Source: Prorocentrum cordatum (taxonomy: Eukaryota > Sar > Dinophyceae > Prorocentrales > Prorocentraceae). Taken from it: a stretch of 64,000 bases of DNA. How positions within the stretch are numbered: position 1 is the first letter of the stretch; every line of letters begins with the position of its first letter. Below the pieces are notes generated by a model that saw only the letters and a list, made by a program, of their open reading frames with translations, was not told where the DNA came from and ran no database searches. Position numbers and translations under genes: made by a program. The stretch spans positions 1 through 64,000 of the forward strand of contig CAUYUJ010014338.1 of the NCBI GenBank assembly GCA_963575745.1. The letters are read 5' to 3'. Of this stretch, positions 6,351 to 34,017 are shown piece after piece.

Positions 6351-6539
6351 AAGGGGAAGGGCCCGGGCCTTCCTTTGAAAACGAGCCTCGTCCAGTCTGC
6401 GTTTGTGCTCCTGGAGGCGCTGCTGTAGCGCCTCTTTGGCTGGTGGGGATATTTTTTCTTTTTACAGCCGCAGGCGGAAGCGCCAGCGGCGGAAGGTCGC
6501 GAACGGGCCGCGGACGCGACTAAATTACCTAACGCGCGC

Positions 6540-7991
6540 AGGGCTGCGGATCAGGCGGCTCACGGCAGCGTCCAGGGGGCCGAAGCCGATGCAATCCAGG
6601 TGCCATGACAGCCCCTGAACGGGCATGCAGGTGCGTCCAACAGGCCTGAGGTAGGCACCGAGACCAGCTAGCGCAGCCAAAATGGCGCGATAACGTTCCA
6701 ACGTCCAGGTGCGGACAAGGGAACGACCCGAGGACGTCAGCCCCAGCCTGACGAGTAGCACATGTAAGTCCAACGAGGATCCCGACGGCGGTAGCGAGCC
6801 GCGGCGCCAGAACGACACCAAGGTGTATCCATGTTCCGAGAAGACTACCGCACCGAGATGTTTCGGCCCAGACCCAGCGGGTGGAAGGGCACCTGAAGCA
6901 CGCTACCCGTCGAAACGCGGCGCGTGCACACCACAGTGTCACAGTGCAGTCCAAAGGGACGGAGAGCACAGGCGGAACGAGACCGTGTATTCCCAGGCAA
7001 GTCCCACAAAGCCACTGATCCAGGGTCGCGGTAGGAAGCCGTCCAGCAATGGGAGTCCAGAGGGCACCGATCCATGGAGCCTGAAGGGTACCACAGGCTG
7101 ACTGGGAACAAGGACCAACGGAAAAAGCTGACGGCGAGCCAGTCGCAACGCAAGAAGCGCATCCAGGGTGTGGAGCATGAAGACAAGACAGAACCTCCAC
7201 AGCTGAGATGCGACAGCCCAGATCCGACGAGTGGAAGGGCGTAGAAGAGCCCGATACACGGCAGACCTCGAGGAGTCTGCACATCTAAGGTGGCCCAGCG
7301 ATACCCAACCGAGTCGTCTAGCACAGAGGGACGAGGACGCCTTGTACCCGCGACGTGTCCCTCAGAGCCAATGGATCCAGGATGACGGCGGAAGGCCGTG
7401 CTTCTTGTTTGAAAGGTCCAGGGTGACGGCGGAAGGCCGATCGTTCGGTTAGAAAGTCCAGGGGGGAGCCAGTGGTCAGGCGAGCCGTGGCCCACTGACA
7501 GGCCAGGAAGGGCTGGCGGTGAGACAACTACAGTAGGGCCTGTGGCCGCGAGTCCACTGCGGAGAAGCGGTGGACGGTATTGCCGAAGCGCGCACCTGGA
7601 TCCAAAGGCAGGAGGTGCGCGCATCGGGTGGAGGGCGGCAGAGCGCCGCGATTAGGGGCCCGCGGCGCGGCCTGGGCAGCGTCCGCTGGGATTCAGGAAG
7701 TGAAACAAGGCGGGGAGAGAGGAGCCGAGTGACGAGAGGGCGTCGGCCACCGGTGGAGAAAGGCAGTGATGCCAGTGGCAAGTGGTCTGCAGGATGCGCG
7801 GTGTCACGCGCGGAGCAGACGGCATTACCGAACGGCACCCCAAGGCCAAGGGTGAGAGAGGGTGCCGCTCAGGGGAGGGGAGGCAGAGTTGCCCCAGGTT
7901 GAGGGAAAGGGCGGCAGAGGGCCGCGGTGGCGCGTTGTGAAGCGCAGGTGGTGGCGCGGGCACTGGGGGGCGGTGAGGGCAGAGAGGGAGT
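6540..7991 (-). other. Probable 3' untranslated region of element B
   Basis: No conserved protein is seen here. A segment at about 6.74-6.90 kb recurs at about 7.09-7.24 kb (offset near 345 bp), visible in pairs such as CAGCGGGTGGAAGGGC and CGACGAGTGGAAGGGC. Two GGAAG-loop hairpins lie at 7385-7399 and about 7427-7439, with a third at 6486-6500. The stretch separates the last element B codon from the start of element A. Confidence 0.5.
7376..7442. repeat. Two GGAAG-loop hairpin repeats
   Basis: Each begins TCCAGG and contains a short stem around a GGAAG loop: ACGGC/GCCGT at 7385-7399 and CGGC/GCCG at 7427-7439. They belong to the ten-copy hairpin family described at 31609-33385. Confidence 0.85.
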
Positions 7992-8890
7992 TCAGTCTCT
8001 CCAGCGGAGTCTCTTTTCCTCTCGATCATCCCGATCATCAGGGTAACCTCCGCCGCGCTTGCCACCCGCCTGCCAGTGATCCTCACGCCATCCGTCGCGC
8101 CACTCGCCCTGCCAACTGCTCCAGGTGTCCCAGGAACTTGTCGCACGGTCGCGCCAGCCCGTGTGGCGATAGCCGCCTTTGCTCCAGTCGTCTGTCTGGG
8201 AGTGACGCAGGTAGTTGGCTCGTATCTTGTTCCAGTCGATATCATAGCCAAGCCTCCTGTTCATCTCGTAGGCGTCGTACCCGCAGTCCTTCCAGGCCTC
8301 TAGGAAGTTGATAATATCCGAGGGCATGTGTAGTTTCGGGTCGGACTTGGGCGCCCTCCATCCAGGGGGCAGGGTACGCTGCGCGTTCGCTGTCCACAGT
8401 GCGCAAAAGACTGCTCCCAGCTGCGACTGAAGCCTGGATATGCGACTGGCTGGTGTCTCGTCGGGACGTTCGAGTTCGACGGTGCCCAGCCTGACTTTGT
8501 ACATTGGGCCGCCTCCATCAGGGCAGGACAGCATGTTGAGCGCGTCCTGCTCCGAAGAGCCAGTATGGCGAGAGTAATGGGGCCTGCGCTCAGGGGGCGT
8601 CGGGGTGGGCGCGGGAAAGCGCTCGTACCGCGAGCCGACGCCGTCGCTGGTCCTCTCGTGCCTCGCGGGGTCTCGAGCTGGAGCCCTCCTGCGATCGGCG
8701 TAGGGCGTGTCTTCTGCAACTGAAGTCGCGGTATCCTCGCGGCTGGTGTCAGAGCTGCCCGCCGACGGGCTACGCTGTGGGCCATCGCCGCCTGGGCGAT
8801 TATCATCACCCTCCTGGGCCGACTCGGAAGGCGTGGGAGGACGGGCGGGTCCATCCTCTTCGTAGTCGGGCTCCATCTTGTGAAAGGGGG
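7992..8890 (-). CDS. Element B C-terminal basic Trp-rich protein module
   Basis: Open frame continuing upstream to 9245, but coding character starts near the FHKMEPDYEEDGP segment at about 8.88 kb, where the frame changes on a G5 run (about 8885-8889). The N-terminal half is acidic/Ser/Pro linker. The C-terminal 190 residues match the end of element A. A folded part (ISRLQSQLGAVFCALWTAN, FLEAWKDCGYDAYEMNRRLG) is followed by a tail of repeated Trp, Arg, Asp and Gly ending KRLRWRD. It may bind nucleic acid as the last domain of the polyprotein; this is inference. It ends in a stop before the 3' untranslated region. Confidence 0.7.
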
Positions 8891-9605
8891 AGCCCGTCTT
8901 CCGCGCCTTCACCGCTGTCGTCGTCGGGCGGATCATGGTGGCCCATGCGTGAGTCGTTGTCCGCTGAACCCTGAGACCTGTCTGTGTCGGCCGCCATGGG
9001 AGTATCTGGCCTGTCGTCGCCACCAGAACACGCGCCAGATGGCGGGGACCCTGCCGGGGAGGTGATCTCTGGCGCCGCGCCAGAGCTGCCTGCGGGGCTG
9101 GGTCCAGGGGGATTGCTTGCTCCGACCTTGGCGAATTGGTCCTGGGCCTTGGCGTCCTCGCCAAGCCACGGGAGGGAATCCACGATGTCCACAGGTGCCT
9201 CGAACCCAATCTGGCTGCTGAGCGCGGGAAGGGCCGGAGGTTCATCTGGATACAGCGGCCTGAAGTCGCGATCTAGGATGTGGTCCAGGGTGGCCGGGCC
9301 AATGTTCCAAATCGGGACCAGACAGCGCCGGCAGCACCAAGTAGCGTTCCATTGGCGCCCCCCCCAGGCCAGGGCACGCTTATCGATGGGGGGCAGCCCA
9401 TGTTGTTCGGGAGCTCCTATGTCTTCAGCCGGCTTCCATATGAAGCACCCCAGCGGCGGAGAGCCGGGGTCCCAGACCAGGAGCGGGGCCCCCTGGGGGC
9501 AGGTGTCGCACCGCGCGGAGTAGGTCCGCGTTTGAGCGGCTTTGATGCCGAAGCGGTCGTCCCGGATCCGGAGGACCGGAATGGTGGTATTGGCAGGCAC
9601 ACTCG
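8885..9605 (-). CDS. Element B Cys-rich domain (CDTC...CRRC)
   Basis: The frame from 9600 down to about 8.89 kb encodes RIRDDRFGIK, then CDTCPQGAPLL, GCFIWK and WNATWCCRRCLVPIWNIGP, then a hydrophobic stretch (DHILDRDFRPLYPDEP) and a long Pro/Ser/Gly/Asp linker. The cysteine series is conserved in element A, which argues for a structural zinc site. The reading enters from another frame near 9.60 kb. No catalytic motif was recognised. Confidence 0.7.
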
Positions 9606-10560
9606 GGGATCTTCATGCCCGTCGGTTCCATGAGGAGGTCATCTAACTGCCTCGTGTCCGCCAGGGGGTTGCAGCCGTAGCCGAGCGGAAGGAGTCCCAG
9701 GGAAGGGAGGACACTCGCTCTGTCGTTGCCGGTCCCCGATATCTGCTGCTCATGTTCCCTGATTCTGTCGGTGAGCTTAGTTCCGGCAGGCGTAGGGAAG
9801 CTATTGTCCTCGAGGTTCCGTATCCAGCAGCCAGCGCAGTACCAGCCCATGTTGGCGCCGTTGATGCACGCCTGAGGTCTATTCTGAGCGACCATCTGGC
9901 GCGTGCTGTCGGAGATCCAGGTACCTTCAGCGGCAGTCAGGTGGTCCTTCCCGCAACTGTCGCACGTGTATATGTTGTTCTTCTTTTCGAACGCGAGCCT
10001 TTCGTCGGGGATGAACGGAGGGTCCAGTCTGGTGCCCGGGGCCGGTGCCGGTGGTGGAGGGGCATTGAGGTCGGTCTGGGACAAGGCAAGTCCGCCGCCG
10101 ATGCAGGAAAAGCCCGCAACCCTGTTGTCGGGGCCGAGGGAGGCGTCGGAACCAGCCAGTGCGACGTGTAGTGCACATACTGAGCAGTCGCCCGTGTCCA
10201 GGCAGGTCAGAGTTGCTGCCGGGACGATCCGTTCGAGAACGATCATCGGCGCTTGCAGCTGGAAGTCCTGTCTGTCCATCTCGCTCCAGGTCTGCGGGCA
10301 GCCGGCTTCCTGCGCAGCCGGGTGGTGATGGGCGAAAGCCACGAGCCTGGAGATGTGTGGTAGCGCTGCCTCGATGCGACTGTGCAGGTCGGCCAAGTCT
10401 TCCAGGGTGAGGCCCCAGGTGCTGGCGAACCGGCTTCGGAAGTCCTGGTGGACCTCTTGCCAGGGTACGCAGAACCCCAGAACGGCTTCGATGACGTCCC
10501 CGGCCTGCTCTGCGTGAGAAAGGCAATAGAAACACTCGCGGCTCACGGAGCATCAGCATC
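9600..10560 (-). CDS. Element B Cys-rich protein downstream of the helicase
   Basis: The frame from 10546 encodes about 310 convincing residues. Helical segments (VLGFCVPWQEVHQDFRSRF, LEDLADLHSRIEAALPHISR) are followed by NIYTCDSCGKDH and MGWYCAGCWIRNLE, a CxxC...CxxC pair of zinc-ribbon type spaced about 35 residues apart. Downstream it shifts frame into the CDTC domain. The helicase-side end also needs a frame change near 10.55 kb. The role is unknown; position next to the helicase suggests a nucleic-acid-binding extension. Confidence 0.65.
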
Positions 10561-11165
10561 ATGACAACCAGAAGCGAGCGGGCCTTGCAGGAATCCATGG
10601 GCTGGCCGTCGGTGTCTAAGAGTCCCTGACGGAAATCTTCCATCGAGGAGCCGCACCCCCGGATGATGTCTCCCAGCCCGGTCATTCCAGGGTGCTTCCG
10701 GTGTCTGCAGCAGTCCTTGGTAGCGGAGCTCCAAGCCTTGGGGACCTGACGGAAGAGTCCTTTGGGAGTACACTGGCGGCGCTTCCACAGCGTTGCACGC
10801 CTGCCGCTGGCGTGAGGCAACGGGGGAAGGGAGTCGTCGGGAATGGCGTAGCTCGCATCCCTCCAGGGGGTGCCTAGGCCGAGCGACCAGACCATTGCTG
10901 CCCATAGCGCGTTGTAGACTAGATTGGTCGCGTCGAGCCCGAGAGACATGTCGCACAAGAACCCCAGGTGCGACCAAGCCTTACGGTCGAGCATGCCCGG
11001 CTGCCGCGGTGTGTTGGCCAACGTGAACTCGTGAGGATGCAGCCCGGACATGAGGTAGATGAGCACGTGGAAGGCCGGCGTCGAGAGGATATCGTGGAGC
11101 CCTCCCGAGATTAGCTTGCCCAGGGTGTCCCAGTCGAAGCTCTTCCAGGGGTGCATTGAACCGCT
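10550..11165 (-). CDS. Element B unrecognised helical domain
   Basis: In the frame read from about 11.16 to 10.55 kb the sequence is protein-like: MHPWKSFDWDTLGKLISGG, FHVLIYLMSGLHPHEF, LGFLCDMSLGLDATNLVYNALW, then CTPKGLFRQVPKAW and a Met/Leu-rich helix. It lies between the helicase C-terminus and the CDSC zinc domain. The helicase frame degenerates at about 11.15 kb, so a frameshift joins them. No family was recognised. Confidence 0.55.
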
Positions 11166-13608
11166 CGGCGAAGCAGGTGGCCTGGGCATCGCGCGCCTTC
11201 TTCTTGGCGACGTCCAGCTCGTTCTGTCCTTTCTCCCCCTTTGCGACACTGCCCCAGGCAGGGGGCGAGGGAATCCATGCGGCAAGGTCCTGGAGTGGGT
11301 CGAAGCTGTCGTCAATGTCCAGGGAGAGCCTGCGGCCCACGGGGGTGCTGCCACGAAACTGGACCCAGAGGCGAGTCAGTCTCCCGTACTCTGAGAGCAC
11401 GCGAAGCTGCGACCATGTGGCGTTGGCGAACATGCGACCGTCTCCCAAGATCAGGATATTCCGCTTGGCCCTGGTGATTGCCACGTTCAGGCGCTTGGCG
11501 TCGTCGACGAAACCCCAGATGTAGCTGCCGTTGCTCCGGGTAGTTAACACTATTACGATGTCCGCCTCGCCTCCCTGGCTGGAGTCGATTGTCGTGAGTT
11601 TGAGAGCCCCAGTGCTCATGCGCTCGCCCGCCACCTGACGTAGTCCAGGGAAGTTAGGGCTGATGGCAGTGTTAGCATTGTCGTCTTCCCGGAACACCTG
11701 TTGCCAGCGGCGAGTGTCCACCCTGTGGCCTTGGGGGGGATGTCCAGGGCCAGGAATATCCTGACCACCGCGTCCAGGACCGTCTTTCCCCTTGCCGGGC
11801 TGCCCTTTGGCGCCACCTCTGGCTTTGCGCAGAACGCCGGTGAGGTGACGAGGACCCTGCGGCCATCCGTCCATGAGAATGGCCGTCTGGAGCTGGTAGC
11901 CGACCACGATTCTGACAGTGGTGCCCTTGTGGAGCTCCGGTAGCAGGGCGCGCACAATATCCACGGCATGGGCCGCCTCCGGAAGATTGGCAAAGCCTGG
12001 TTGTAGCTCGGAGGTGACCTCCCAGGAGGGTGTGTGCACCATTAGGAAACGGTGCTTGTCTGGGCCCAGCGGCGGGTCCAGGGGCTCAAGGGTGGCGCGG
12101 AAGTCACTTTCGTCGGAACCGGTGAGAGTAGCCAGCTTCGCCAGTCGTCCAGGTTCCCACGCACGAATGTCTCTCCAGGGGATGCCCTCAACTATTGGCC
12201 GCTCTCTGAGCGGATGCAGGATGCCAGACTTCATGCCTTTCCCGTAGTAGGCTGCGTTCGGGAACGCGAGTAGCTGCGGATGCATCCGATAGCAGATTGA
12301 AAGGTGAACAACTGAAGACTCCTGGCCGCGGAGTGCGTGGAACATCCTGTCGAAGATGCTGACGCAGAGCCCTAGTTCGTTCGCCAGTTTGGAGAGCACT
12401 GTGGGGGGCAGCTGGTTTGGGCCTCCGACGAGGACCACGGTCCCTCCGCTGTTAATCAGGTTTACCATGGACATGAGCGCGTGGAGCTCAGTGGCTTGTC
12501 CGGCCTCGTCGATGACTAGGAGGACGATTTGGGGGCTGTCCTTTTGACCAAGTGCCTCTGACGCCTCGTGCGTGGACATGATTATCCTGGCCTGACGTAG
12601 TAAGCTCGCCTTGTAGGGCTTGAAGCCCTGGTTCTTGTCCCCGTCCTGGAAGGGGAACTCGCCGTGGGCGTTTCTGTAATGACCCTCGGGAGTAAGGTCA
12701 ACAAGTGCCTCGTTGACCCGGTCCTTCCTTGCCGGGCGCGCGAACTTGTCGGGGAAGCCCGTGTCTTGGTCGAGGCGCCGCTGACGTTGTGCCTCGATCA
12801 TTGCCAGAGCTGGTTGGTCGACCGCCGTGTTGGACCCTGCTGCCAAAGCGACAGCGTGTCCAGGGCGTAGGCAGGAACCCCACATGTCCAGGCAGGCAAC
12901 TGAGAAGGTGGTCTTGCCAGTTCCAGGGGGTCCTTGCACAAGGACAGCATGGTGGTTCAGGGTGGCACGCAGGGCACTGGTCGCATCGCCGTTCGGCCTG
13001 TGCTTGTCGATAATCCTATGGAGCGTGTCCACGCTGGGAGTAGGACGCACTCTCTGAAAGACGGAGCCAGTCGTATCTGAGATTTCGTCGTCAGAGAACG
13101 CCTTTAAGCCTTGGGGGAGAGGCGGTGCCTGCAGCAGCGTGCCGTCTTCGACTGGTTGCAAGTGGTCGGCGTCTGGGACGTTCCGCTCAAGGGTGGCCGC
13201 CGCCCTGGCTCTAAGGCTCAGCCCCAGGGAACGCATGTGTCCCAAGTCGTTGGCCAAGGTTCGATCCGACCGAGGGGCGTGAACAAAGGCAAGAAGGTAC
13301 GTCAGAGGTGAAAGCTGGTGGCCGAACAGATCCGCTGGGTTTTGGCGCAGGTAGTAGATCTGTTCCAGTGCCGAGCATTGCCGCCAAAACTGGATGTCAG
13401 ACTTAAGGGGCCTCATGTACACGATACCAGGGGAGATCGTCGCTCGGGGGGCGTCTCGCCTTGGTTTCGTCTTCGTGAAACTGCCCGCTCTTCGCGCGGT
13501 TGTAGACGACGATGCACCAGTTCGAGGGGTACCTGTCGGAAAGGGCTGAGACCTAGCGCTTGAGCATCCCTGGGATGGATGTGACCGCCCAGGGCGGGAG
13601 GCCACCAA
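10981..13608 (-). CDS. UPF1-like superfamily-1 RNA/DNA helicase
   Basis: ATP-driven nucleic-acid unwinding is expected. Visible SF1 motifs, at approximate residues of the 875-residue frame: I GPPGTGKTT (226), II VIDEAGQ (364), III LVGGPNQLPPTV (396), the SICYRMHP arginine box (439), V DSSQGGEADIVIV (673) and VI KRLNVAITRAKRNILILGD (706). DEAG plus DSSQGxE and NVAITRAK is the UPF1/SEN1/MOV10 pattern. The usual motif III begins GDxxQLPP; here it reads GG, one A-to-G change (GAC to GGC) from the expected Asp. The first 60 residues and the last 90 look out of frame. The domain is unexpected beside a LINE reverse transcriptase and may act in RNP remodelling or strand displacement (inference). Confidence 0.92.
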   Translation of the reverse strand: MVASRPGRSHPSQGCSSARSQPFPTGTPRTGASSSTTARRAGSFTKTKPRRDAPRATISPGIVYMRPLKSDIQFWRQCSALEQIYYLRQNPADLFGHQLSPLTYLLAFVHAPRSDRTLANDLGHMRSLGLSLRARAAATLERNVPDADHLQPVEDGTLLQAPPLPQGLKAFSDDEISDTTGSVFQRVRPTPSVDTLHRIIDKHRPNGDATSALRATLNHHAVLVQGPPGTGKTTFSVACLDMWGSCLRPGHAVALAAGSNTAVDQPALAMIEAQRQRRLDQDTGFPDKFARPARKDRVNEALVDLTPEGHYRNAHGEFPFQDGDKNQGFKPYKASLLRQARIIMSTHEASEALGQKDSPQIVLLVIDEAGQATELHALMSMVNLINSGGTVVLVGGPNQLPPTVLSKLANELGLCVSIFDRMFHALRGQESSVVHLSICYRMHPQLLAFPNAAYYGKGMKSGILHPLRERPIVEGIPWRDIRAWEPGRLAKLATLTGSDESDFRATLEPLDPPLGPDKHRFLMVHTPSWEVTSELQPGFANLPEAAHAVDIVRALLPELHKGTTVRIVVGYQLQTAILMDGWPQGPRHLTGVLRKARGGAKGQPGKGKDGPGRGGQDIPGPGHPPQGHRVDTRRWQQVFREDDNANTAISPNFPGLRQVAGERMSTGALKLTTIDSSQGGEADIVIVLTTRSNGSYIWGFVDDAKRLNVAITRAKRNILILGDGRMFANATWSQLRVLSEYGRLTRLWVQFRGSTPVGRRLSLDIDDSFDPLQDLAAWIPSPPAWGSVAKGEKGQNELDVAKKKARDAQATCFAERFNAPLEELRLGHPGQANLGRAPRYPLDAGLPRAHLPHVRAASSRVHVGQHTAAAGHARP

Positions 13609-13985
13609 ACTGAGACGTCAGCGATCTTGTCTACCGTCGGGCCCGTGACTGACATGTAAAGCAACCTGCTCTCTTTGTCACGTTCCAGGGGTCTGGTCGC
13701 GACCTTGCACATTGAGGGCCACTCCAACAACAGAAATTCCTTACCGACGGGTAGGTGCATGGCGTTCCGCAGCCGAAAGGTGTCCAGGTCCTCCAAGCGC
13801 GTATTGGCATCGATCCTGGTGACGCGAACTCCGAGGGCGCAGTTGCCCCTTCTGGCTAAATCCTCTCGCGTGGAGCCTCTGCCGTCGTCTACCGTCTCGA
13901 CCGAGGCTTGGCTTTCGACCCAAGCGATCCTCTTTAACGTTTGCCCTCGGTCCTGGAGGGAGTAGGGCCATTGTGAGGGGAGTCG
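13480..13985 (-). CDS. Helicase N-terminal extension, shifted frames
   Basis: One frame (13796 downward) reads LEDLDTFRLRNAMHLPVG, EFLLLEWPSMCKVATRPLER and VTGPTVDKIADVSVWWPP. Past about 13.56 kb a third frame reads YPSNWCIVVYNRAKSGQF before joining the helicase frame near 13.43 kb with IVYMRPLKSDIQFWRQCSAL. The composition is protein-like, but three frames are needed, so one or two indels are present. It probably corresponds to the accessory region preceding the ATPase core of UPF1-like helicases; no zinc box was identified. Confidence 0.5.
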
Positions 13986-14150
13986 GACGGCATTGATTAG
14001 TTCCCCGGGCGCTGCCTTGGGGTGGACTCTAGAGTGCGGGGAGTCCAGCGGAACCGAGTAAAGGTTGGCGACATCTGAGGCTGCCTGCGTGGCCAGTGAA
14101 TCTTCCAGGGCAGCTGGACTTGTCGGAGAGAGAGAGCTTCAATCTCCGTC

Positions 14151-14837
14151 TCACTGCCCTCGGCCAGCTGGACTGTTCGCCGCTGGCAGGGTGGGCCCCA
14201 GGCAGGAGGAGGGCGAGACGGCGGGGGCGGAGGGGGAGTCCCGGGGAGGTAACCCAGAGGAGCCTGCGGCCTGCCCAGGTGAGGGGGGTAGCCAGATGGA
14301 CGATTTCGCCCGCATCCTGTTCCCGTCGCCGTCCTCGGGCTGTCTAAGGCCCTCCTTTGCGGCGCCCAGCCTGTCCATCATGTGCGAACGAACCTTCTCC
14401 GGCTCCACCCTGGTGCCTCCTGGGCAGTTGTATGTCGACGGATCGTCCCAGAGGGGGTAGGTAATGGGCACGTGCAGCGCATCCCCGGGGATTGCGATGC
14501 CAGGTAGCGAGCGCACCCCGTCGCGGGTAACCAAGGGCTGGACTGGTTTCCAGCCGCGCCAGGCCAACCGCGTGACGGACACCTGGTGGGTAGCGTCGTA
14601 GGGGTTCCCTCCGCACATGCACCAAAGATTCCCAGGAGTGGTGAAGGTGTTCGGGTCTGGCCACCCGTCCTGGTACCGTGCCACCGACATGTCGTAGTGC
14701 TTCGCGCTTAGGATGTGTTCAGTGTCGTCGACGGGCTCCTGGCAGATCTCGCGCCAGTGTCGCCAACCGCAGTGGAAGCATACCCAACGCATCCAGGGAC
14801 AGAAGCGGGCCAGGAAGACGCGCGTGCCCGCGCGCAT
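14151..14837 (-). CDS. Cys/His domain between RNase H and helicase
   Basis: The frame opens with RFCPWMRWVCFHCGWRHW followed by EHILSAKHYDMSVARYQDGWP. CxxC with two downstream histidines is reminiscent of a U1/C2H2-type zinc finger, and a further CMCGG follows. The middle part has LPGIAIPGDALHVPITYPLW. The last 80 residues turn into Pro/Ser/Ala linker and may be out of frame. Read as a zinc-finger linker between RNase H and helicase; function is unknown. Confidence 0.55.
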   Translation of the reverse strand: MRAGTRVFLARFCPWMRWVCFHCGWRHWREICQEPVDDTEHILSAKHYDMSVARYQDGWPDPNTFTTPGNLWCMCGGNPYDATHQVSVTRLAWRGWKPVQPLVTRDGVRSLPGIAIPGDALHVPITYPLWDDPSTYNCPGGTRVEPEKVRSHMMDRLGAAKEGLRQPEDGDGNRMRAKSSIWLPPSPGQAAGSSGLPPRDSPSAPAVSPSSCLGPTLPAANSPAGRGQ

Positions 14838-14928
14838 TGGCGGCCCTTCGTCACTGTACGGTAGGCAGGAGGGCCAGCGGCGGAGGGGGCCCTGGTTGTA
14901 TTTGGGTATTGTCCAGGGTGGGAACCTG

Positions 14929-14955
14929 TCCAGGATGGCAGCGGAAGGCTGCGCT
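14929..14955. repeat. GGAAG hairpin copy inside element B
   Basis: TCCAGGATG followed by a GCAGC/GCTGC stem around GGAAG (14938-14952). Relative to the commonest form (GCGAC/GTCGC) two base pairs are exchanged with pairing kept. It sits in the gap between the Cys/His ORF (ends 14837) and the RNase H ORF (14993). Confidence 0.85.
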
Positions 14956-14992
14956 TCTTGTGATGGCAGTGACGCTGCGACCCGTCAGGACC

Positions 14993-16570: not shown

Positions 16571-17078
16571 CCTGCCGCAGCCGCACTGGTGGGGGATCCT
16601 GTCAGCGACGCTTCGTCAACGCGCGGATGCGGGTAGTCCGTTGGCCAGAACGCGGAGGACGTGGTGCGCCTCGGTGAAGGAGGCGCAGTGCCCGAGAAGG
16701 GACCATTCCGCACCGTCTGTTTGAGCCCACCTACGCTCGTGGCTGGTTGTGGAGAACCAGGAGCTCACCACGTGCCCGTGGAGCTGCGCCCAGGCCGCAA
16801 CGTAAACTACGCGCCCGAAGTAGCGGGCCCAGCGCCTATGGGGGCTCTCTCAAGGCGCGATTGAAGAGGTCAGCGGCCCTGGCGTCGGTCAGCACCTTGG
16901 AGCAGGGCCTACGTGGCTCATCCCGAGGGGCGAAGTCCCGCGCCCATTTCACGAGTTTGTTCCACCTTCTCCCCGCCTTATGTCTCGCCTGTAGGGGCCC
17001 CCACAGGTCGTCAAGGGCGTGCGCCCTGGCCGCGATCGCACGCGAGGTAGCAACCGGGCATTTGGGGCAGCCAGGGAC
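16571..17078 (-). pseudogene. Reverse transcriptase to RNase H linker, interrupted
   Basis: After the TAA that ends the reverse transcriptase frame, the same frame continues with protein-like LDDLWGPLQARHKAGRRW and LVKWARDFAPRDEPRR before a TAG at about 16.85 kb. Another frame then reads RRWARYFGRVVYVAAWAQ and WSLLGHCASFTEAHHVLRVL and reaches the zinc knuckle across one TGA. At least one indel and two stops therefore interrupt what was one polyprotein. Confidence 0.6.
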
Positions 17079-20880: not shown

Positions 20881-20899
20881 TCTCTCTCTCCCTCTCTTC
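20827..20899. repeat. CT/GA microsatellite within methyltransferase coding
   Basis: About 70 bp of (CT)n with two interruptions near its right end. On the sense strand it would encode alternating Arg-Glu. The methyltransferase N-terminal motifs are in one frame on its sense-upstream side and the C-terminal motifs in another on the downstream side, so repeat-length change has broken the frame. Confidence 0.95.
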
Positions 20900-22790: not shown

Positions 22791-23600
22791 AGTTGCCTCA
22801 ACTGAGCGCAGGCCGCGTCTGCAGTCAGAGCTGCTTGGCGTGAATTTATCCTCCTGCCGGCGGGGTTGCGCGTACCCGGAGGTGGGTGGGTAGTCCAGTA
22901 AGCGCCGAAGGCGTCTGGGATTCGCGCGGCGAGTCCAAGCTCTTGGTGAGAGTCTCTGACAGTTTTGTCCAGCTGGGGTATCGCTGCTGCGATCACACTG
23001 AGCACTTGGTTCCATTCGGCTTCGGAGGGGGGGGTGCCTGTGCCGTCTGAGGCATGTATCTGCGCCAGTCTGAGCGTCCGCGCCATGACTCCATATTCCC
23101 GTCTCCAGTCCGCGCTCATGCAAGGGGGGAGCTCAGGCCCAGCTCGCGGTGTGTCTCCTCGCCCCAGGGGGTCGTTGCAAGTGCTAGGCGCCGTGCCCGG
23201 CGGCGGTCTCCTGCTCTGGGCTGTCGCCGGATCCGTGGGGACCCGTGGAGGTGCGTCCTCGTTGCACGCCGCGCCCCCCGCGTCTGTGGTGCTGGCAGCC
23301 GGGGCCGTACCCCGAGCCTCCTCTGTACTGTCGAGAGTCGCGGCTCCACACCCTCCGGTCGATCGCAGCTCAGCGTTGGTGTTTGTTTCGTCCTGAGATC
23401 CGTGGGCTCCCAGGGGTGTCACGCCGATGTGTCTCTCGGGAGGTTCCGCGGGGTCAGGACTATCTCGTCTCACAGCTTCAGCACCGCTGCAGGCTGTGGA
23501 GGGGACTTCGCCTGCGCCCGGGCTCGGCGTGGCGGCGCAGACCGGGGCGTGTGAACGTGCTGGTCCCTCTCTGGGTGTCGCGGGGATCGCAGAGGTCGTC
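22745..23600 (-). CDS. Element B linker and helical segment before the methyltransferase
   Basis: Frame from 23785. Most of it is Ala/Pro/Thr/Arg linker with no fold. Residues about 235-330 look structured: CMSADWRREYGVMARTLRLA, WNQVLSVIAAAIPQLDKTVR, LGLAARIPDAFGAYWTTHPP and ALTADAACAQLRQLARTV. Coding then passes into the methyltransferase frame near 22.79 kb. No family was recognised. The low-complexity half makes the exact upstream frame change (23.5-23.75 kb) uncertain. Confidence 0.5.
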
Positions 23601-26015: not shown

Positions 26016-26017
26016 CC

Positions 26018-26465
26018 TCACAGCTCGTGGGTCTCGAGGACGTGGTGGAAGAGCATCTCGAAACCCTGGCATCTCAGGAGCTCGTCCCGGGGGAGCTGCA
26101 CTCTCGTGGTGACCCAGCCGGCTGCGATCATCCCGTTGTGGGATCGCCATAGTTCATCCCTCCACCTCATGATCTGCGCAACGACGCCGTCATTGCCGCT
26201 CTCAGGGGTTAGGATGTGTAGCGCATCAGAGGTGTCCCCGTTCCTTCCACCCCAGTGCACAACTATTGACGGGGGTAGGATCGTGCGCAGTGTCCTGCCC
26301 TCTAGGTCGAACTGAGCGGCGAAGAGTTGCTGCATTGGTGGGCTGGGCTTGCCTGTTCGGTAGGGGTGTCCAATCGGCACGAGATGGGTAATCTTGCTGG
26401 CGGCTCGGTATCCCCACTGCGCGTTTGTCAGGGCTGCGAGCTCGACCGGATCGGTCCCCCAGGTG
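26018..26465 (-). CDS. Element B unrecognised domain after the RING ORF
   Basis: Frame from 26503, coding from about 26.46 kb: AVTWGTDPVELAALTNAQWG, ITHLVPIGHPYRTGKPSPPM, LFAAQFDLEGRTLRTILPP, SIVVHWGGRNGDTSDALHIL, IMRWRDELWRSHNGMIAAGW and LRCQGFEMLFHHVLETHEL, then a TGA at 26018. It is entered from the RING frame across a short C-run region (26455-26475) and left by another shift at about 26.02 kb. It appears to be one folded domain continuous with VVDALAQHMDAALTAATAAG of the upstream frame. Not recognised. Confidence 0.55.
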
Positions 26466-28750
26466 ACGGCACCCCCTCGGTGGCCAGGGCGACGAGACAG
26501 CATGGGCTGCCCGCGGCGGTCGCTGCCGTCAGGGCGGCATCCATGTGTTGAGCTAGGGCATCTACCACGAGGATTGTTGGGGCGGCGCTCCCCTGAGGCT
26601 GGTTCCTGCGCTCCGAGACTACTGCTTTGATCTGCTCCCAGGCGTCTGGGCCTGCGAGGGCAAAGGTGACTCCAGTCTCGTCCGCTACACGTTCGCCGAG
26701 GTAGGTGCTTCTGGAGATTACCAGATCGGCTGCAATGTCTCGGACGGCCGCTGTGAGCAGCCCTACCGGGAACCGCCCAGGTCCCCTCCTCATGGGTTCA
26801 TCCTCTGGGGGGTTCGGTCCCAGTAGCAGTGCCCATCTTCCGAAAGTGATTCGCGGGGCTTGCCGTATCCTATCTGTCCTGTTGGTGGGACCAGGGGGTC
26901 GCTGCGGAGGCGAGGTCCCAGGTCCCTGCGTGCTGTTGTGGGTGTCGTCGGAGTCCATGCCGCTTCCACCGTTCCCGCCGTCAGGTGGGGTCCCATCCGC
27001 TTCCATCGGGTCATGACGTGCCTCCTGCGCGGTTCTCCTCTCCGCAACGTGCGCGTGGATTCTGCGCATGTCTGAAAGTGTGACGTATGTGTGGGGACGT
27101 CGGATGGAGAGTGTTTGTGCTCTGAGGCAGTCCAGATCTGGGGCCAGGTGCCTGAAGGCATTGGCTAACTCTTGCAGGCTCAAAAAAGGCTGCAGTGGGA
27201 GTAGGGTCCCGTCGCGGAGCTGTAGGAGGTCTGGAGGTACCGCAATGTCCGCGGCGTCGGCATCTCGTGGTCGGTCTGAAATCCTTACGGAGACGCTACC
27301 CCTATCGACGGAGCGGCATATGGGACAGTTCACTGGGAAGCATCTTCCGTGGGACAGGGCCTGCGCTGGCTGGCTAATCCTCCACTGTCTCAGGCATTCG
27401 GCGTGATACAGGTGGCCGCATGGTACCAGGGCTTCCGCGAAACCTAGGATGTCCTCGCTGCAGATCATGCATCGAGGGGTTCCTACCTCCCGGTCCCAGG
27501 GAGGAACTTCCACGGCGTCCATGCTTTCCGGAGGGAGCCTGACACTGCCCCCAGGAGGGTGGCTGAGTTGGGATAAGCCATCCCCCAGGCTCTCGATGAG
27601 GGCTCTGGCGGACATGCTGGCGTCGAGGTGCGTCAGACTAGCTCCTTCACTGAGGTGGGATATGAGGACCTGGATTTGTGAGTTGCTGAGGTCGGAGTAT
27701 GGAGCTAGATCGGCATCCGGGAAGTCCCTCCGAAGGCAGGCCACGAGGTCTTCCGGCGTGTGCATCTCATTCCTGGTCATCCAGCGGTAGAGAACGTCGT
27801 AGGGTCGGGGGTCCAGGGCCCGCACAGTCAGCACTGGCTTGAGGAGGGGGAAGTAGTGTGGGGCCAGGCAGAGCCACAGGGCTCTAGAGATCCAGGGACC
27901 CGGTTGTCGATCTACCCTGTGTTCCAGGAGCATGCTTTGTGCGAGGCACTGTGCCTGGTCCCCATTGACAGAGGTCCTTTCTCCGGGGGCCGGCATGGTA
28001 CCTCTGCCTGCCTCCTCTTCATCCCGCTGCCTGGCGTCGAGAGTGCGTATGAGTCTGTCCAGGAGCCCTTCTCTGGCACTGCCAGCCGGTAACCTGCCCT
28101 GGGGAGTAGCGAAGCTTGCCCGGTTGAGCATCTGTCTTATATCCGCGTGCCATGGCGTGGTTGTGCTTGCGGCTTCCACAATTTCGGTTTCTACTCCAGG
28201 GCGTGGTCTGCCTTCGCTCGCGGGCCCGCTGTTCCTTGGGTTTGACCTCTGTCCAGCACTGGCCATTTGCGCCCGAGTCCTCGCTCCGGCCTCCACCGCC
28301 TGCCGATCTCCAGACAGGATGGCAGTCTGAAGGAAGCCGCTTGCATCCAGGTGCAGCATCATTCGCTCCTGGAGCTGGGGTGCGATGTAGCCGCCTACCT
28401 CGGGGGCCTCGAGCGAGGCACCCGCTGCCCTGGACGCCATATCTGCTTCGGATGCGAGTGCTAACTGGGCATCCCTGTAGGAGCTGACGCCTCGTGTTCT
28501 CCACCAGGCTGCTGCATGTTCGATAATAGCGGTGCTGAGGTTGCTGCTCCTGAAGGCTAGTTCGATGACATTTCGACATCTGTTGGTGGCTGTGCCCCAT
28601 ATAAAGGGGACCAGGATACTGCTCCAACGCATGCCAGGGGTGACGGAGTTGCTTGCGACCCTCGCCCTGATTCTCCTCACCTCCTCGATGAATGCGTCTC
28701 GCTGCGACCGCTCCGCCTGAGAAAGCCCCTCCTCCAGGACTGGGGGGGGG
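26440..28750 (-). CDS. RING-H2 finger protein region of element B
   Basis: Frame from 28773, in use after the G12 run at 28742-28753. Residues about 5-430 are largely helical (AFIEEVRRIRARVASNSVTP, IELAFRSSNLSTAIIEHAAA, VLISHLSEGASLTHLDASMS). At about residue 434 a RING-H2 appears: CMIC, CGHLYHAEC and CPIC, the C3H2C3 ligand order, with Trp after the last ligand pair as in E2-binding RINGs. After it come VRDIAADLVISRSTYLGERV and TILVVDALAQHMDAALTA. Ubiquitin-ligase activity is the usual role of RING-H2; in a retroelement it might act on host defence or on the element's own proteins (inference). Confidence 0.8.
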
Positions 28751-28753
28751 GGG
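28742..28753. repeat. G12 homopolymer at a frame change
   Basis: Twelve consecutive G on the plus strand (C on the sense strand). The sense protein reads VARPPQRPPPP before it in one frame and VLEEGLSQAERSQRD after it in another. Either a length change or a sequencing or assembly error at the run breaks the frame. Confidence 0.85.
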
Positions 28754-29230
28754 TCTTTGGGGAGGCCTGGCAACTACCCCTTCTAAGCCCGCGTGGCTGC
28801 CCCTGCCGCTGCGGGGGTTGTCCACGTCCATGGGGGCGTGCCCTTCGCTAGGACGCCTAGAACGCTCTTGGTCCTGCCCCCTGCTGTCTGCCTCCAGTCG
28901 TCTGAGGACGGCGTCCGTGACGAGGTTTCCCAAGGGGGTACCCTGCCCCATTTGGGGATGTATTGGGCGCCAGTCAGTGCGTGCGGCTGCTTGCAGCGCC
29001 CTTCTCATTACTTCTGCTGTTTCAGAGTGGGGGCTGTCTCTATTGTGCCACCAGCGTCTGCTGAGATCGGTGTGATCACGTGCGTCGCTTATAGCGCGGT
29101 CAAGGTGGTCCCCGCCGATGGTGTATCTTAGCCAGCAGAGGTCGTCCGGGTGCACCCGAGTGTTCGGTCCAATGGGAACGGATGTAGTTGTTCTGCTGGG
29201 TAGTGGGGGCCTCCGGCATGTTTGTGGGTG
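28750..29230 (-). CDS. Element B ORF segment upstream of the RING region
   Basis: The frame through the ATG at 29155 reads HPDDLCWLRYTIGGDHLDRA, RRWWHNRDSPHSETAEVMRR and IHPQMGQGTPLGNLVTDAVL, then a Pro-rich linker up to the G12 run. The same frame extends back to the TGA at about 29420 without another stop. An alternative start is the ATG near 29220 (MPEAPTTQQNNYIRSHWTEH) in a neighbouring frame, which would need one indel to join. The segment is not recognised as a known family. Confidence 0.5.
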
Positions 29231-29419
29231 AGTGTCTGCGCCGCCGTGGTAAAGAGAGGGAGGGAACCGCCCATCGAGCCGGCCACGGGGGCGGGTCCTG
29301 ATGATGTGCCGAATTTCCTGGCAGGCGTTTAAAGCCCAGGAGCCTGGCGCTGAGCAAAGTAACGCCAGCGAGATCGACGCTGTGCGGAGTTGCCAATCGC
29401 CCCCGACCTCTTCGAGGCC

Positions 29420-31828
29420 TCATGAGTCTTCGTATGACCAGATTTCAGGTAGGCCTGCAGCGTGGGCCACCATATGCCTCCAGGCTCCCAGGAGTTCACC
29501 CACAAGCCATGTTGGGGTGAAGTCGGAGGGGCCAGGCGGTGTGGGGGAGTACAGATGCTCGGCGATTGGGGCGTATCGCATGCCCGCTTGGACGAGCTGA
29601 ATCAACAGAGTCCCGCCCAGGAGGTCGAGGGCGTGCCTGTTGGGTGGCTGGCCAAGGTCTGCTCCTGGGTGACTCTGAGGTGAGGCGTCTGCTCGCGGCT
29701 CCTCTGGGTTGTAACTCCAGGGGATGGCCAGTCTGTGGCAAGTGATGCAGGTTTGTCCAGTGGGATCTCGGAGCATCCAGGTGCCACAGAAACTACATCT
29801 CTCTCCTGGGCAGAAAAAGTCCCGCAGCCGTAGTCTGTGAGCTGTGGTGGACCATGGCCAAGCGTCGTCACTACTGTCGCTTCCTTGAATGGGGACTCCA
29901 GGGATGCCCGCGGAGCGGGCGGGTATCCCCGAGAGGGCGGCCTCTACCCATGGGACTGGGCCTCTACCTGCCTGTCGTCTCGAGTGCACGTCACTTCCCA
30001 TGCGCCCGAGGTTCCCTCTCGTGATGGCCCACTGCCTGACGTCCCCGTGGTCCGGAAAGTGGACTATATCTTGCCTGCGCTCGTGAATAAGGACTCGATG
30101 GGCGCAACCCATGACCTCGTCATCCATGGGGTCCAGCGTCCCGTCTGCTCGGTTAGGGCCACCACTGTGCAGAGGGGCAGAGTCCTCGGGGGATCTGGTG
30201 GGCATGAGCATCCTATCTGTGTCATATCCGTTCGGGAGCTCCATTCCTATGTCGCAGTAGTGCGCAGCTGCGGCCATGGCAACGTACTCGAGCCGTGCTA
30301 GTTGCCTCTCAGTCACTGAGGGGCTGGCTGCGTCCATTCTTTCACTCCTTATACTGGGATCATGAGTAATGCTCGCAAAGCGGAAGGCGAGGACCTGGAC
30401 TGGGTCCGGTTGAACGCCTCCCACACGCCCCTCATAGTCTCCTCCAGTGATGGACCATACCAGCCAGGTGTGGTCCAGAATAGCGAGAATTGGGGCTGAA
30501 GTGGCGACCTCGGAGTAACGTCCAGGGAGGGCTGGTTCTACGGGAGCCGTGCGCATGGGGCTGTCAGCTCGTACGTCTGGGTGGCCTGGGCGGTGCCTCC
30601 TCCACGCGTGGTGTGCGAGGAGTTCCAGGTTGCTGGTTTCCCGAGATGTTCTCGGCGCCCCGCGGTTGGGGACCTCGCGCCATGGCCCCTCAGTGTGCAC
30701 AAGGTGCCGGCGTAGGGCCCTCATGGTGCCCCCCCTGCCAGAGATCCTGGCGTCTGCAACGCGCGGGCCACAAATGGGTCCGCCCGCCTCCCGGCTGGCC
30801 GCCCAGTCAGCATTCGCGTGCCCAGTGGCGTCCAGCCACCGTGCGTGGAGGTCCGCAGCGCTTTGCCCCCTGCTCCTCAGCGCTTGGCTGTGGTCGTCAA
30901 GGTCTGAGGGGGTGGGCGGGTTCTCCATTCGCAGATCCTCTTCCAGGGCGAGATCTGGAGATGGGTAGGAGGGGGGGTCCGTGAGGACGGGGCCCCTGGG
31001 CGCCGCGTGGCTGACCTCGAGGGGCGCGCCGCAGCTCGTCCAAAGGAGGGGCCCCCGCACTCTGCCCTGTGACGAGTAGTCAGGCCCACGACGGCATTCA
31101 CCGAGCGCAGCGTTAAGAAACTCGAGCCCAGGGGGCAGGTCGGGAGGGGAGAAGTCGGGGGAAGAGCTGGTGGACGAGGGAGGAAAGGCACGAGGAGATC
31201 CATCCGCCGGGATCGGAGACCTTGCCCGATCGATCGGATCGACATGAGGAGCGGCCCCGACCGCGGGATCGGAAGCAAACCTGGGGGTGCTGGGCGAACG
31301 AGGAGGCCCGTCAGACCCTCCAACGGCCAAACCCATGGCAAGACAGAGGCGATCGATCATCCCTGTGGACGAGGGCGCCTCCCTGCGATCGCTGGAGCCG
31401 GGGACCCCCGACTCTCGCACCCCTCCCTCAGGCGCGAGGCAAGGCCCGTGGCCTGCTCCTGGGAGGCACCGGTAGGCCGCGGTATCAGCGCGTATACTGA
31501 AGACGCTGTCCCGCCCCACCTCTGCGGGGGTAGGGTCACAGGTCATGTCTTCCCTCTGCCAGCGATCCCTGGGTTGAACGCCGTGCGCCTCTCTCTGCGT
31601 GCCGTCGTCCGGTCCAGGGTAGCGACGGAAGGTCGCGCGTTCTGTGTGTATCGCGGGGGGGAGAGCCTCATCCCCTCCTTGAGTGTGGTGCCTAGCGCTC
31701 TCGTCTCCAGTGGGTCGACTGGAGGCGGCAGCGCTGGGGCGCACATGACCACCGTGCCCCCGTCCAACCCCCGTGGGGGTAGGGTCCCTGTTCCTAGCTC
31801 CCCCGTCCGTCTGTTCCCTGGGTCGCAA
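29420..31828 (-). CDS. Element B ORF with zinc ribbon (CSFC...CITC)
   Basis: An 802-residue frame. The N-terminal part continues the ATFRRYPG repeat peptides of the upstream region and a Pro/Ser/Asp-rich linker. The C-terminal 300 residues look globular: VLIHERRQDIVHFPDHGDVR, then RLRDFFCPGERCSFCGTWML and TCITCHRLAIPW, a CxxC...CxxC zinc ribbon at about residues 670-695, then HALDLLGGTLLIQLVQAGMR and LVGELLGAWRHMVAHAAGLP. It ends in TGA at 29420, after which the frame stays open. This is a candidate ORF1-type nucleic-acid-binding protein of the element (inference). Confidence 0.6.
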   Translation of the reverse strand: MRPREQTDGGARNRDPTPTGVGRGHGGHVRPSAAASSRPTGDESARHHTQGGDEALPPAIHTERATFRRYPGPDDGTQREAHGVQPRDRWQREDMTCDPTPAEVGRDSVFSIRADTAAYRCLPGAGHGPCLAPEGGVRESGVPGSSDRREAPSSTGMIDRLCLAMGLAVGGSDGPPRSPSTPRFASDPAVGAAPHVDPIDRARSPIPADGSPRAFPPSSTSSSPDFSPPDLPPGLEFLNAALGECRRGPDYSSQGRVRGPLLWTSCGAPLEVSHAAPRGPVLTDPPSYPSPDLALEEDLRMENPPTPSDLDDHSQALRSRGQSAADLHARWLDATGHANADWAASREAGGPICGPRVADARISGRGGTMRALRRHLVHTEGPWREVPNRGAPRTSRETSNLELLAHHAWRRHRPGHPDVRADSPMRTAPVEPALPGRYSEVATSAPILAILDHTWLVWSITGGDYEGRVGGVQPDPVQVLAFRFASITHDPSIRSERMDAASPSVTERQLARLEYVAMAAAAHYCDIGMELPNGYDTDRMLMPTRSPEDSAPLHSGGPNRADGTLDPMDDEVMGCAHRVLIHERRQDIVHFPDHGDVRQWAITRGNLGRMGSDVHSRRQAGRGPVPWVEAALSGIPARSAGIPGVPIQGSDSSDDAWPWSTTAHRLRLRDFFCPGERCSFCGTWMLRDPTGQTCITCHRLAIPWSYNPEEPRADASPQSHPGADLGQPPNRHALDLLGGTLLIQLVQAGMRYAPIAEHLYSPTPPGPSDFTPTWLVGELLGAWRHMVAHAAGLPEIWSYEDS

Positions 31829-34017
31829 GCCTTGGGCGTCATCCAGCCTTCCGCCATCCGCTCCAGGGTAGCGACGGAAGGTCGCACGGTTTGGGTGTAT
31901 ATCAGGGATGTCTGCAGCCCCCCTTCTCCAGCATTATGCCTGCCGCTCTCGGGTGCACGGGGGCGGTCAACTGCTGCGTCGGTGGCGGGATGCCCTTCAC
32001 GGGTGAAAGGAGGGGCCCCGCCGCTTAGCTCGCCAGCGGGGACGGCCTCACCCAGCGCGGGCACGCCCAGGGGGGGGGGGGGGTCGGCGGTGGGTTGGCG
32101 TGAGCCTTGACGGGGCGTGCAGGGGCTGCATGCAGCGGCTTGCCCGCACCTGTTGTCTTTGCCCTCGCGAGCGCCCCCTGAAGATATCAGCTCCCTGTGC
32201 ACGACATCCGAGTCAACCTGTCCCCTGGGAAGACCGCGGCGGATGTTCGTCTGTTCCTCGTCGGTTGTCATAAGCGCGACAAGATCCGCGGGAGAGTTTT
32301 GTGCCGAAACGGGGCCCTCTCCCCCGGTTGCCCCGGTAACGCCTGGGGTCGTTTCACTCTGCCCGACAGCGCCTGGAGCGAGGGAAGTTGGACGTCCTGC
32401 AGCGGGCATGGGAGCGGCGGAGGTAAGAGAGGCGGTTGGGTTAGACAGGAGGGCTTCGTGCCCAAGGTCATCGCGTCCAGGGGAGCGGCGGAAGGTCGCA
32501 GCGTCGGGCTGTCCTCTGCCAGCGTTGCCACGACCATCCCCCGCGGGGGTCAGCTCCCTGGTGCATTCTACCCCTACACACCGTTCCCTGGGCTGAACAT
32601 CGCGGGCGTTCCTCTGCCCGTCACGGTCCGTTCCAGGGTAGCGACGGAAGGTCGCGCGTTCTGTGTGAATTGTGGGGATGGCCGCACTACCCCCTCCTTC
32701 ACTGCCACGCCTGCCGCTGTCAGGCTCCTGAAGGCGGCCTGGAGTGGTGTCAGAGTCGAGGTGCGCGCCGCAACCTGAAGACCCGTCTTCCATGCTCGAA
32801 CCGTTGCGGGGAGCAGCCTCGCTCGGGGCGGCCGCATCCAGAGAGGGGGGCACGGCGGAGTGAGGTCAAGAGCCCCTAGGATGCGTGACGGGGCCGAGGC
32901 GACGTGACTGCCCGTCTCCCCCCACTTCGCCTTCAGGGGCGCATCCTGGGGGTGTCGGGTACATGCAGCCCCCATCCACGCCATCGAGTTCTCTGCGTCG
33001 GGAGCCGAGGGCAACTCCCAGCTCGTCGCGAGACTGTCCGAGAGGAGGGGGGTTCGTGGGATAATAAACTGCTTCAGGAGTGGGCCCGTCGGCCCCCGTG
33101 AGCCTAGCATCGCCATGGGCGGTCCCGCTGTGCCCAGCGCTGCCTGGAGAAAAGGAGATTGGGCGTCCAGCCGTGGGCAGAGGAATAGTGGGGGTAAGGG
33201 AAGGGTAGCTGGGCGGGAGGGCCTCATGTCTGACAATACCTCCAGGATGGCGACGGAAGGTCGCGCTTTCCGTATGAAACGGAGGGCTGAACGTATCAAC
33301 CCCGTCTACCGCTGCGCATCCGTCGATCTCAAGTCCAGGGTAGCGACGGAAGGTCGCACGTTCGGTGTGTATCACAATGCTGAGGGGATCGGCCCCTCCC
33401 TCCGATTGGCTGGGGATAATTTGTCCTCGCGTGCCCGAAGCATCGGCCGAAACGCTCCCATTCCAGGGAACAGAGAGCGACGGTTGCCCTGGCGGGATGG
33501 TGTCCTGAGATCCAGGGCGAGTCTGTCCAATGTCGTTTGGCCCAGTGGTCCCGAGGCCGACATCGGATGATGCGGCTCTTTCCCCCGCAGGAATGACAGG
33601 ATTGTCGCCGATCGATCGCAAGCTATCAGGCCGACCATCCATGAGGCAGCGGTCCTGATCCGATCTGAGCCTCGGGCCGCTGAGCCCGTCTGCGCGGCGG
33701 GCAGGCGTTCGCGATGGCTGGCGCGCCCGGTGCCGGAGGGGGTCCAGGGCCGCGGGCCCCCGGCGCAGCGTCTGGGCGCCCCCTTGAGCGGCGGGAGACA
33801 GCCCCGGAAAGGGCAGGCCCACCAGACGGCTTGAGCCAGACTGGCTACGGAAGTGGTGGGGACACGCGAACCGTTTAGAATTTTGTGTGTGAGCAAATCT
33901 GGGTATGAGTAAGACTGAGTGTGAGTCAGTCTGTGTATGAGTAAGTCTGGGTATGAGGCGGAGAGGGGAGGAGAAGGAGAAGAGCGAGGAGAAATCGGCG
34001 GCGTCCAGTAGTAACAA
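31543..34017 (-). CDS. Element B N-terminal repeat-rich reading frame
   Basis: One frame is open from 34017 to 32866 and, after a single stop, from 32853 to 31543. It is Pro/Gly/Ser/Arg-rich. It encodes peptide repeats IHTERATFRRYPG (three times counting the next ORF) and FHTESATFRRHPG, each followed by a similar AAGRPxSxxPGxxG segment. After a G14 run at 32070-32083 the repeat is read in another frame (VRPSVATLERM). Conservation at both nucleotide and peptide level leaves open whether this is coding or a repeated 5' untranslated region that happens to be open. Confidence 0.4.
31609..33385. repeat. Six GGAAG-loop hairpin repeats in tandem 5' monomers
   Basis: Copies centre at 31629, 31878, 32492, 32648, 33257 and 33350. 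Each starts TCCAGGG/A and carries a 5-bp stem around GGAAG: GCGAC/GTCGC in five and GCGGC/GTCGC at 32485-32499. Surrounding sequence also repeats with a spacing near 0.70-0.77 kb (for example GCGCCTGGAG near 32.37 kb and GCTGCCTGGAG near 33.14 kb). The arrangement resembles the 5' monomer arrays of some LINEs, which carry promoter activity; that role here is inference. Confidence 0.8.
33888..33960. repeat. Degenerate GTATGAGTAAGTCTG short tandem repeat
   Basis: About 70 bp of GTATGAGTAAGTCTGGG-type words, same orientation and wording as the array at 1069-1140. It lies at the sense-upstream edge of element B. Confidence 0.8.

Follow-up and report, generated by a model that had tools for sequence, protein, structure and literature searches.

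The first 64,000 nucleotides of contig CAUYUJ010014338.1 of the dinoflagellate Prorocentrum cordatum (assembly GCA_963575745.1), referred to here as the window, carry on the minus strand a block of coding sequence that we read, with a probability of about 0.93, as one mobile element: a site-specific retrotransposon without long terminal repeats (non-LTR retrotransposon or long interspersed nuclear element, LINE) of ~27.4 kb with three open reading frames (ORFs). This element, termed element A, occupies positions 33850-6452. Searching the assembly (4,128,499,153 bases, 21,875 contigs; the window corresponds to C13489:1-64000) with the helicase encoded in the block gave 4951 first-look candidates, 52 of which were scored; these strong matches share 74-100% identity with the query. 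Six of the 52 loci were fetched as stretches of 30 kb each, the choice falling on loci with long open frames that lie on the + strand. All 17 coding segments recur in the same order and direction in five of them, mostly at 85-98% amino acid identity, running from a RING finger through a methyltransferase (MTase)-like domain and a core of endonuclease (EN), reverse transcriptase (RT) and RNase H to a UPF1-like helicase and zinc motifs. The sixth copy (C15886) is 5'-truncated, as is often the case for LINEs; it starts within EN-RT and has every later segment. One copy (C18366) aligns with the window in a single piece from 33883 to 6440 (27,564 columns, 93.1%), and another (C7557) harbours a 5.1-kb insertion within the RT (L031-L032, ~275.3-280.4 kb). 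A first-pass annotation of the sequence had joined these minus-strand domains into one unit and suggested a search for further copies with the same domain order; both the unity and the search hold up, and RING, RT and helicase lying in separate elements were seen in none of the six copies read from the 52 scored helicase places.

It is very unlikely that the block is a composite of at least two separate elements, for instance a LINE with EN and RT and an element with the helicase, which came to lie side by side. The hairpin in the gap at 14.95 kb could mark a former element end, and the window does hold a nested second element, termed B. Against this, the order is the same in all five untruncated copies, at least four of which have different DNA beyond the target, no stem-loop, tail or target sequence was seen at 15 kb, and the target duplication encloses the whole block.

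Of the characters by which LINEs are recognised, target duplication, 5' truncation and a 3' tail were found, and no LTR: the ends show no long direct repeat pair among 20 of the 22 repeat families listed for the window. By the features tested, namely the RT motifs, an apurinic/apyrimidinic (AP)-like endonuclease upstream of the RT, and duplication, truncation and tail, element A is a LINE. We consider a host gene cluster or an integrated virus extremely improbable. Large DNA viruses do carry helicase, RING and MTase genes, but the EN-RT-RNase H core together with duplication, truncation and tail argues for a retrotransposon, capsid and DNA polymerase gave no match in Pfam scans, and 52 strong helicase copies were scored. 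A host gene with introns, against which the annotation had also to be held, is disfavoured by the target duplication, the 5' truncation, the uninterrupted copies and an ORF3 that is open over 2331 amino acids.

The limits of A were derived from blastn matches of the six other copies. These end at 6440-6463 in five copies and at 6514 in one (C12225), and start at 33882-33888 in the four copies fetched with a 5' end, the initial ~30 bp being target DNA. The limits first assigned to the block, 6520-33885, were thus nearly right, with the outermost ~30 bp at the 5' side belonging to the target and not to A.

Codon-usage segmentation, trained on four conserved ORFs, gives an unbroken coding signal (31161-7997) that is divided over 18 frame segments, has five in-frame stops and lies between non-coding flanks at 34173-31162 and 7996-6464. 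Together with the Pfam domains, this continuity indicates that the window copy is a decayed gene block and not a series of chance ORFs. Its decay comprises frameshifts, a (CT)35 run in ORF1 and the loss of one catalytic Asp from the RT motif, and it is one decayed member of a family whose parts stay open in other copies.

Coding content and purifying selection

The first-pass annotation had described the block as lacking a visible gene boundary, which does not hold: ORF1 overlaps ORF2, which is read in another frame, and ORF2 and ORF3 are separated by a gap with a hairpin. We infer that ORF1 is a single ORF, its longest open pieces in other copies being 1900 and 1651 amino acids; the latter, in C6113, holds the RING finger together with the N-terminal part. 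ORF2 is shifted to the -1 frame with respect to the ORF1 end, which it overlaps by 190 nt in four of five copies and by 55 nt in C6113; a classical slippery site was looked for at this overlap and not found. ORF3 is open over 2331 amino acids in C7557 and 2320 in C3950, and its start Met lies ~100 bp downstream of the gap hairpin.

The EN-RT-RNase H core named in the annotation is recovered as minus-strand Pfam matches in the expected order, all below the cut-off: Exo_endo_phos_2 (1.1e-4) for the endonuclease, RVT_1 for the RT (1.2e-4 in the window, 1.3e-5 in another copy) and RVT_3 for the RNase H-like domain (8.5e-4). The catalytic RT motif reads YVDD in all six other copies and YVGD in the window. 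The active-site motifs of the endonuclease are mostly retained in five copies, with single departures in C6113 and C12225, and the EN, RNase H and superfamily 1 (SF1) helicase motifs are mostly preserved in the other copies.

The RING-H2 finger and the UPF1-like SF1 helicase proposed at the outset are both confirmed by Pfam matches above the cut-off. For the RING the match is to zf-RING_2 (Table 1), with 3.3e-6 in another copy. On the helicase, encoded on the minus strand, AAA_12 scores 2.2e-27 and AAA_11 7.4e-25, the helicase of C7557 has a Pfam match of 3.3e-26, and the best PDB matches are SEN1 (1.3e-27) and UPF1 (2.7e-25); judged by these matches the domain is a UPF1/SEN1-like SF1 helicase. 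Its motifs are mostly preserved in six copies. Divergence between copies is 2.3-11.7% (median 4.6%) for 11 of 20 loci, nine having been dropped by strand; the selection count below used all 20. As for the zinc-type domains of the annotation, CxxC pairs are present, but the CFHC pair among the Cys/His residues before the helicase (14151-14984), where UPF1 has a CH zinc domain, recurs in none of the six other copies.

The MTase-like stretch holds what we take to be motifs I, IV, V, VI, VIII, IX and X of C5 DNA methyltransferases, in this order, as read by eye. Sequence searches of Pfam (PF00145 included) and PDB gave no MTase match, also with the two frames joined. Scored with a C5-MTase profile of nine bacterial and phage proteins, the joined domain came second of 1001 sequences (with 1000 of its own shuffles) at only 0.8 bits; the unjoined part was not in the 15 best listed and had a domain score of -3.3 bits. 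Motif IV reads LPGASLS in five of five copies, and the window likewise has no Cys at this motif, so that the catalytic Cys is absent from the family as sampled. In a predicted model of the unjoined part (pLDDT, the predicted local distance difference test, of 35) strands and helices follow each other in a Rossmann-like manner; its structure matches, none of them significant, are numerous and include M.HhaI and DNMT3A. The domain is here termed MTase-like and is probably inactive, and the C5 methyltransferase of the annotation is not upheld. That the domain is unrelated to methyltransferases altogether is a serious alternative, to which we give somewhat less than an even chance: the missing sequence matches to any MTase, the profile scores and the Cys-less motif IV speak for it, while the readable motif order and the low-confidence model point the other way. 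So does SymbioLINE-Dnmt, in which a DNMT lies at the same position upstream of EN-RT (PMC5890265).

Selection was gauged by the ratio of non-synonymous to synonymous polymorphism (pN/pS), counting single-base codon variants against the majority codon and using variants common to at least two copies; the tree of copies was ignored. Low values were obtained for the segments ENn (0.05), EN_RT (0.16), RH, the RNase H (0.09), and HEL, the helicase (0.17, or 0.21 with 20 copies), as well as for RING and u24 (both 0.15). The end of the MTase-like domain (MTc) gave 0.07 and its main part (MT) 0.35; u26, Zn9, u11 and Zn10 lie between 0.00 and 0.27. Six wrong-frame controls on EN_RT, HEL, RING and MT gave 0.78-3.09, the MT control being the lowest. 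Compared with these controls, the low pN/pS values indicate that selection maintained the RING finger and the helicase while the family spread.

Target site, leader-like start and hairpins

Insertion of A is site-specific: the target is an abundant repeat, termed T, which is entered 18-29 bp from its start. The empty site has 19,668 matches in the genome at up to two mismatches, and the reversed control has none. In the eight places read T is a dispersed repeat, which starts with AATTCTAGACGC in six and with ATTGTTGACGC in two. The window has the first 29 positions of T at 33882-33854 and its continuation, from T position 18 on, beginning at 2000; T thus carries both A and B, two related elements standing head to tail, with a 12-bp duplication that has one mismatch. 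A flank like AATTCTAGACGCTTCGCG-TATCCCCACCA precedes all four full 5' ends and also the 5'-truncated copy, which identifies this flank as target DNA. At least one further family uses the target of A, as element B shows, and in C18366 another element starts directly behind the A copy. We read A, B and the target copies, from their sequences, as probable products of repeated site-specific target-primed insertion. A 3' stem-loop and an A-rich tail are common to the copies of A, the stem-loop folding with z-scores of -2.06 and -2.68. In one contig T is arranged in tandem, with steps of 459-567 bp (L058, C370:350100-351300), and the ends of T form a short inverted repeat, TCCC(C)ACCAGCCC / GGGCTGGTGGGA.

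The leader-like start of A stands after GCTTCGCGTATCCCCACCAG. In 11 of 16 stretches the sequence that immediately follows the target is CCGTAGCC and, after a loop of 0-4 letters, TGGCTCAAG; five of ten fetched 901-bp stretches have no leader-like sequence and no blastn match above 80 nt to the 5' untranslated region (UTR) of A, the place having possibly been missed. The dinoflagellate spliced leader (DinoSL) is given as CCGTAGCCATTTTGGCTCAAG in PMC7245778. All 17 non-loop letters of this leader are kept in 11 of 11 starts. The loop is ATTT in none of them; it is exactly CCTC in three and CTC in another three, the others having CCC, CCTT, CCCC, AGTC and no loop, and it leans C-rich. We give nearly an even chance to the possibility that this 5' end is the decayed relic of a genuine leader on an ancestral trans-spliced RNA, with no functional mimicry; DinoSL relics at the 5' ends of dinoflagellate retrocopies are documented (PMC12014239). 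A fresh leader in each cycle should, however, give ATTT in young copies, and the loop differs from it in all 11 while the other letters are unchanged. An element-encoded mimic therefore appears slightly favoured over a relic.

A second recurrent signal is a covarying RNA hairpin of 5 bp with the loop CTTCC, followed by a conserved CCTGGA, of which the window has nine copies (Table 1). A model built from these nine finds one further window match below E = 1, a weak one at 6485-6500. In the six other copies it gives 42 matches (E ≤ 0.01), all in sense orientation, one of which lies behind the element in C18366. Among 35 distinct hairpins 96.6% of cells are paired and 21 cells are double-changed, each value being reached by 0 of 500 shuffles; this alignment was fitted to the model and hence leans toward the structure. 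A MAFFT alignment of ten hairpins gives 94% paired and five double-changed cells, and each of these values is reached by 2 of 500 shuffles.

Several observations count against the picture drawn so far. Neither RT nor EN reaches its curated Pfam cut-off, whether in the window or in a further copy. C7557 is without target sequence after its 3' end, and C12225 ends early. No copy read has ORF1, ORF2 and ORF3 all open, so that the coding integrity of ORF1 is something we infer. The pN/pS values of N1_Zn, u23, MT, u137 and C8 go down no further than 0.33-0.37, and that of Zn14, the segment of Cys/His residues before the helicase, is 0.85, i.e. no purifying selection. Two of the five hairpin measures fall within the shuffles (pairs with double change 161/500, pair types 500/500). 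When two stretches were folded, the 3' stem-loop of B formed in one of them; unlike that of A, it has no folding advantage over shuffled sequence (z-scores of -0.39 and -0.30).

Table 1. Positions of element A, its parts and its surroundings in the window
Feature	Position	Strand	Remarks
16-bp microsatellite flanking T	33890..33957	.	opposite flank has a similar unit (1075-1138)
Start of T	33854..33882	-	first 29 bp; includes left duplication copy 33865-33854; blastn with C370 T unit 89.7% over 29 bp
Spliced-leader-like 5' end of A	33830..33850	-	CCGTAGCC-AGTC-TGGCTCAAG
5' UTR	31361..33829	-	six hairpin copies
5' UTR hairpins	33325-33369, 33232-33276, 32623-32667, 32467-32511, 31853-31897, 31604-31648	-	
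ORF1	20404..31360	-	decayed in window; start Met assigned by eye; Cys motif at N terminus, RING, unknown domains, MTase-like domain
RING-H2 finger	27313..27474	-	PF13639 (zf-RING_2) 1.1e-6, above cut-off
MTase-like domain	20420..21830	-	motifs by eye, IV lacking Cys; (CT)35 run at 20828-20897 splits the domain
ORF2	15020..20596 (end approximate)	-	AP-like endonuclease, RT, zinc motifs, RNase H-like domain; overlaps ORF1
ORF2 domains	endonuclease ~19483-20124; RT ~17500-18550; RNase H-like ~15169-15610	-	
ORF2-ORF3 gap hairpin	14920..14964	-	match at same place in 6/6 other copies
ORF3	7992..14837	-	SF1 helicase 11386-12984, then CxxC motifs
3' UTR	6452..7991	-	hairpins 7367-7411, 7412-7452; terminal stem-loop 6467-6490; A-rich tail 6452-6466
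Target sequence TATCCCCACCAGCC between A and B	6438..6451	-	perfect 14-bp duplication of 1986-1999; flanks B
Element B	2000..6437	-	4.44 kb; 5'-truncated relative of A; 39-45% amino acid identity to ORF3 end; nested in same target
Remainder of T	1141..1999	-	blastn 90.4% over 2000-1838, 76.8% over 1600-1141; 1837-1601 outside both matches

Elsewhere in the window, a 152-bp unit forms seven tandem copies at the contig start (1-1061), and arrays of a 90-bp GC-rich unit lie inverted at 43730-44836, with arms of up to 243 nt that are 80% complementary. An ORF at 57438-58238 has a weak DUF6451 match (1.7e-4, below the cut-off), and an imperfect (CAT)n tract of 2.7 kb occupies 60800-63532.

Relation to known elements and a possible life cycle

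LINEs are usually 4-8 kb long, and we know of no longer class. A single fixed target in another repeat or gene family is a habit of the LINEs Tx1L, in Tx1D of Xenopus, and SLACS/CZAR, in spliced-leader genes; A is likened to them by this habit and not by target sequence, and its leader-like sequence is in the element, not in the target.

The SymbioLINE-Dnmt elements of Symbiodinium (de Mendoza et al. 2018) are like A in being dinoflagellate LINEs in which the ORF before EN-RT encodes a DNMT-type domain, and in having target duplications and conserved UTRs (PMC5890265). Key DNMT residues are reported as conserved there, whereas in A motif IV is without Cys and PF00145 is unmatched, and the main text does not use the words helicase or RING. 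What A has in addition is ORF3, a fixed target and a leader-like start; the two are set apart here by description. An added SF1 helicase is shared with the insect LINEs TRAS and Jockey, in TRAS within the ORF2 protein alongside the usual domains (PMC5563155, PMC6338049). These sources trace the helicases to plus-strand RNA viruses, whereas that of A is closest to SEN1/UPF1 among solved structures and has its own ORF3; the telomeric-repeat target is that of TRAS without helicase, helicase-bearing TRAS being said to be absent there. Giant retroelements with extra domains are represented by the Penelope-like Terminons and by Burro, a Gypsy LTR element with RING-related and ubiquitination-linked motifs (PMC6431247). 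According to that source the endonuclease of Penelope-like elements, where there is one, is of the GIY-YIG type, Terminons have a 3' hammerhead and telomeric repeats, and Burro has LTRs; their RT classes differ from that of A. In element A, Pfam scans gave no GIY-YIG domain and an Rfam scan at E up to 1 no hammerhead. We found no report of a LINE with the domain set of A in the open-licence PMC literature. What sets A apart from SymbioLINE-Dnmt, from TRAS/Jockey and from the giant Penelope-like and LTR elements is that its size, its ORF3, its target and its leader-like end occur together.

A life cycle may be proposed as follows. The RNA of A would start with a leader resembling the spliced leader of the host and would be translated into the products of all three ORFs, that of ORF2 from the overlapping -1 frame. 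The endonuclease of ORF2 would nick T beside TATCCCCACCA, and the RT would recognise the 3' stem-loop and tail and copy the RNA by target-primed reverse transcription, during which the RNase H domain would remove the RNA. The UPF1-like helicase probably either frees this very long template of structure and proteins or protects it against RNA decay. The RING finger is probably an E3 ligase acting on host factors, and the MTase-like domain, having no catalytic Cys, probably binds nucleic acid. More speculative, and in our view rather unlikely, is a quasi-viral LINE lineage of ~27 kb in which the spliced-leader mimic, encoded by the element, lets the RNA pass as a completed trans-spliced mRNA, the hairpins act as a recognition code read by the element's own proteins, the UPF1-like helicase and the RING ligase guard or clear the template from host RNA surveillance while it is copied by target priming, and a repeat of 20,000 copies offers a safe harbour.

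A 27.4-kb family with selected cargo would show that the size limit of LINEs can be broken, perhaps aided by an added helicase, and its fixed target would provide a system for testing cargo function. The leader-like start bears on the origin of the leader sequences found on dinoflagellate retrocopies, and the A family may help to account for the very large genomes of dinoflagellates.

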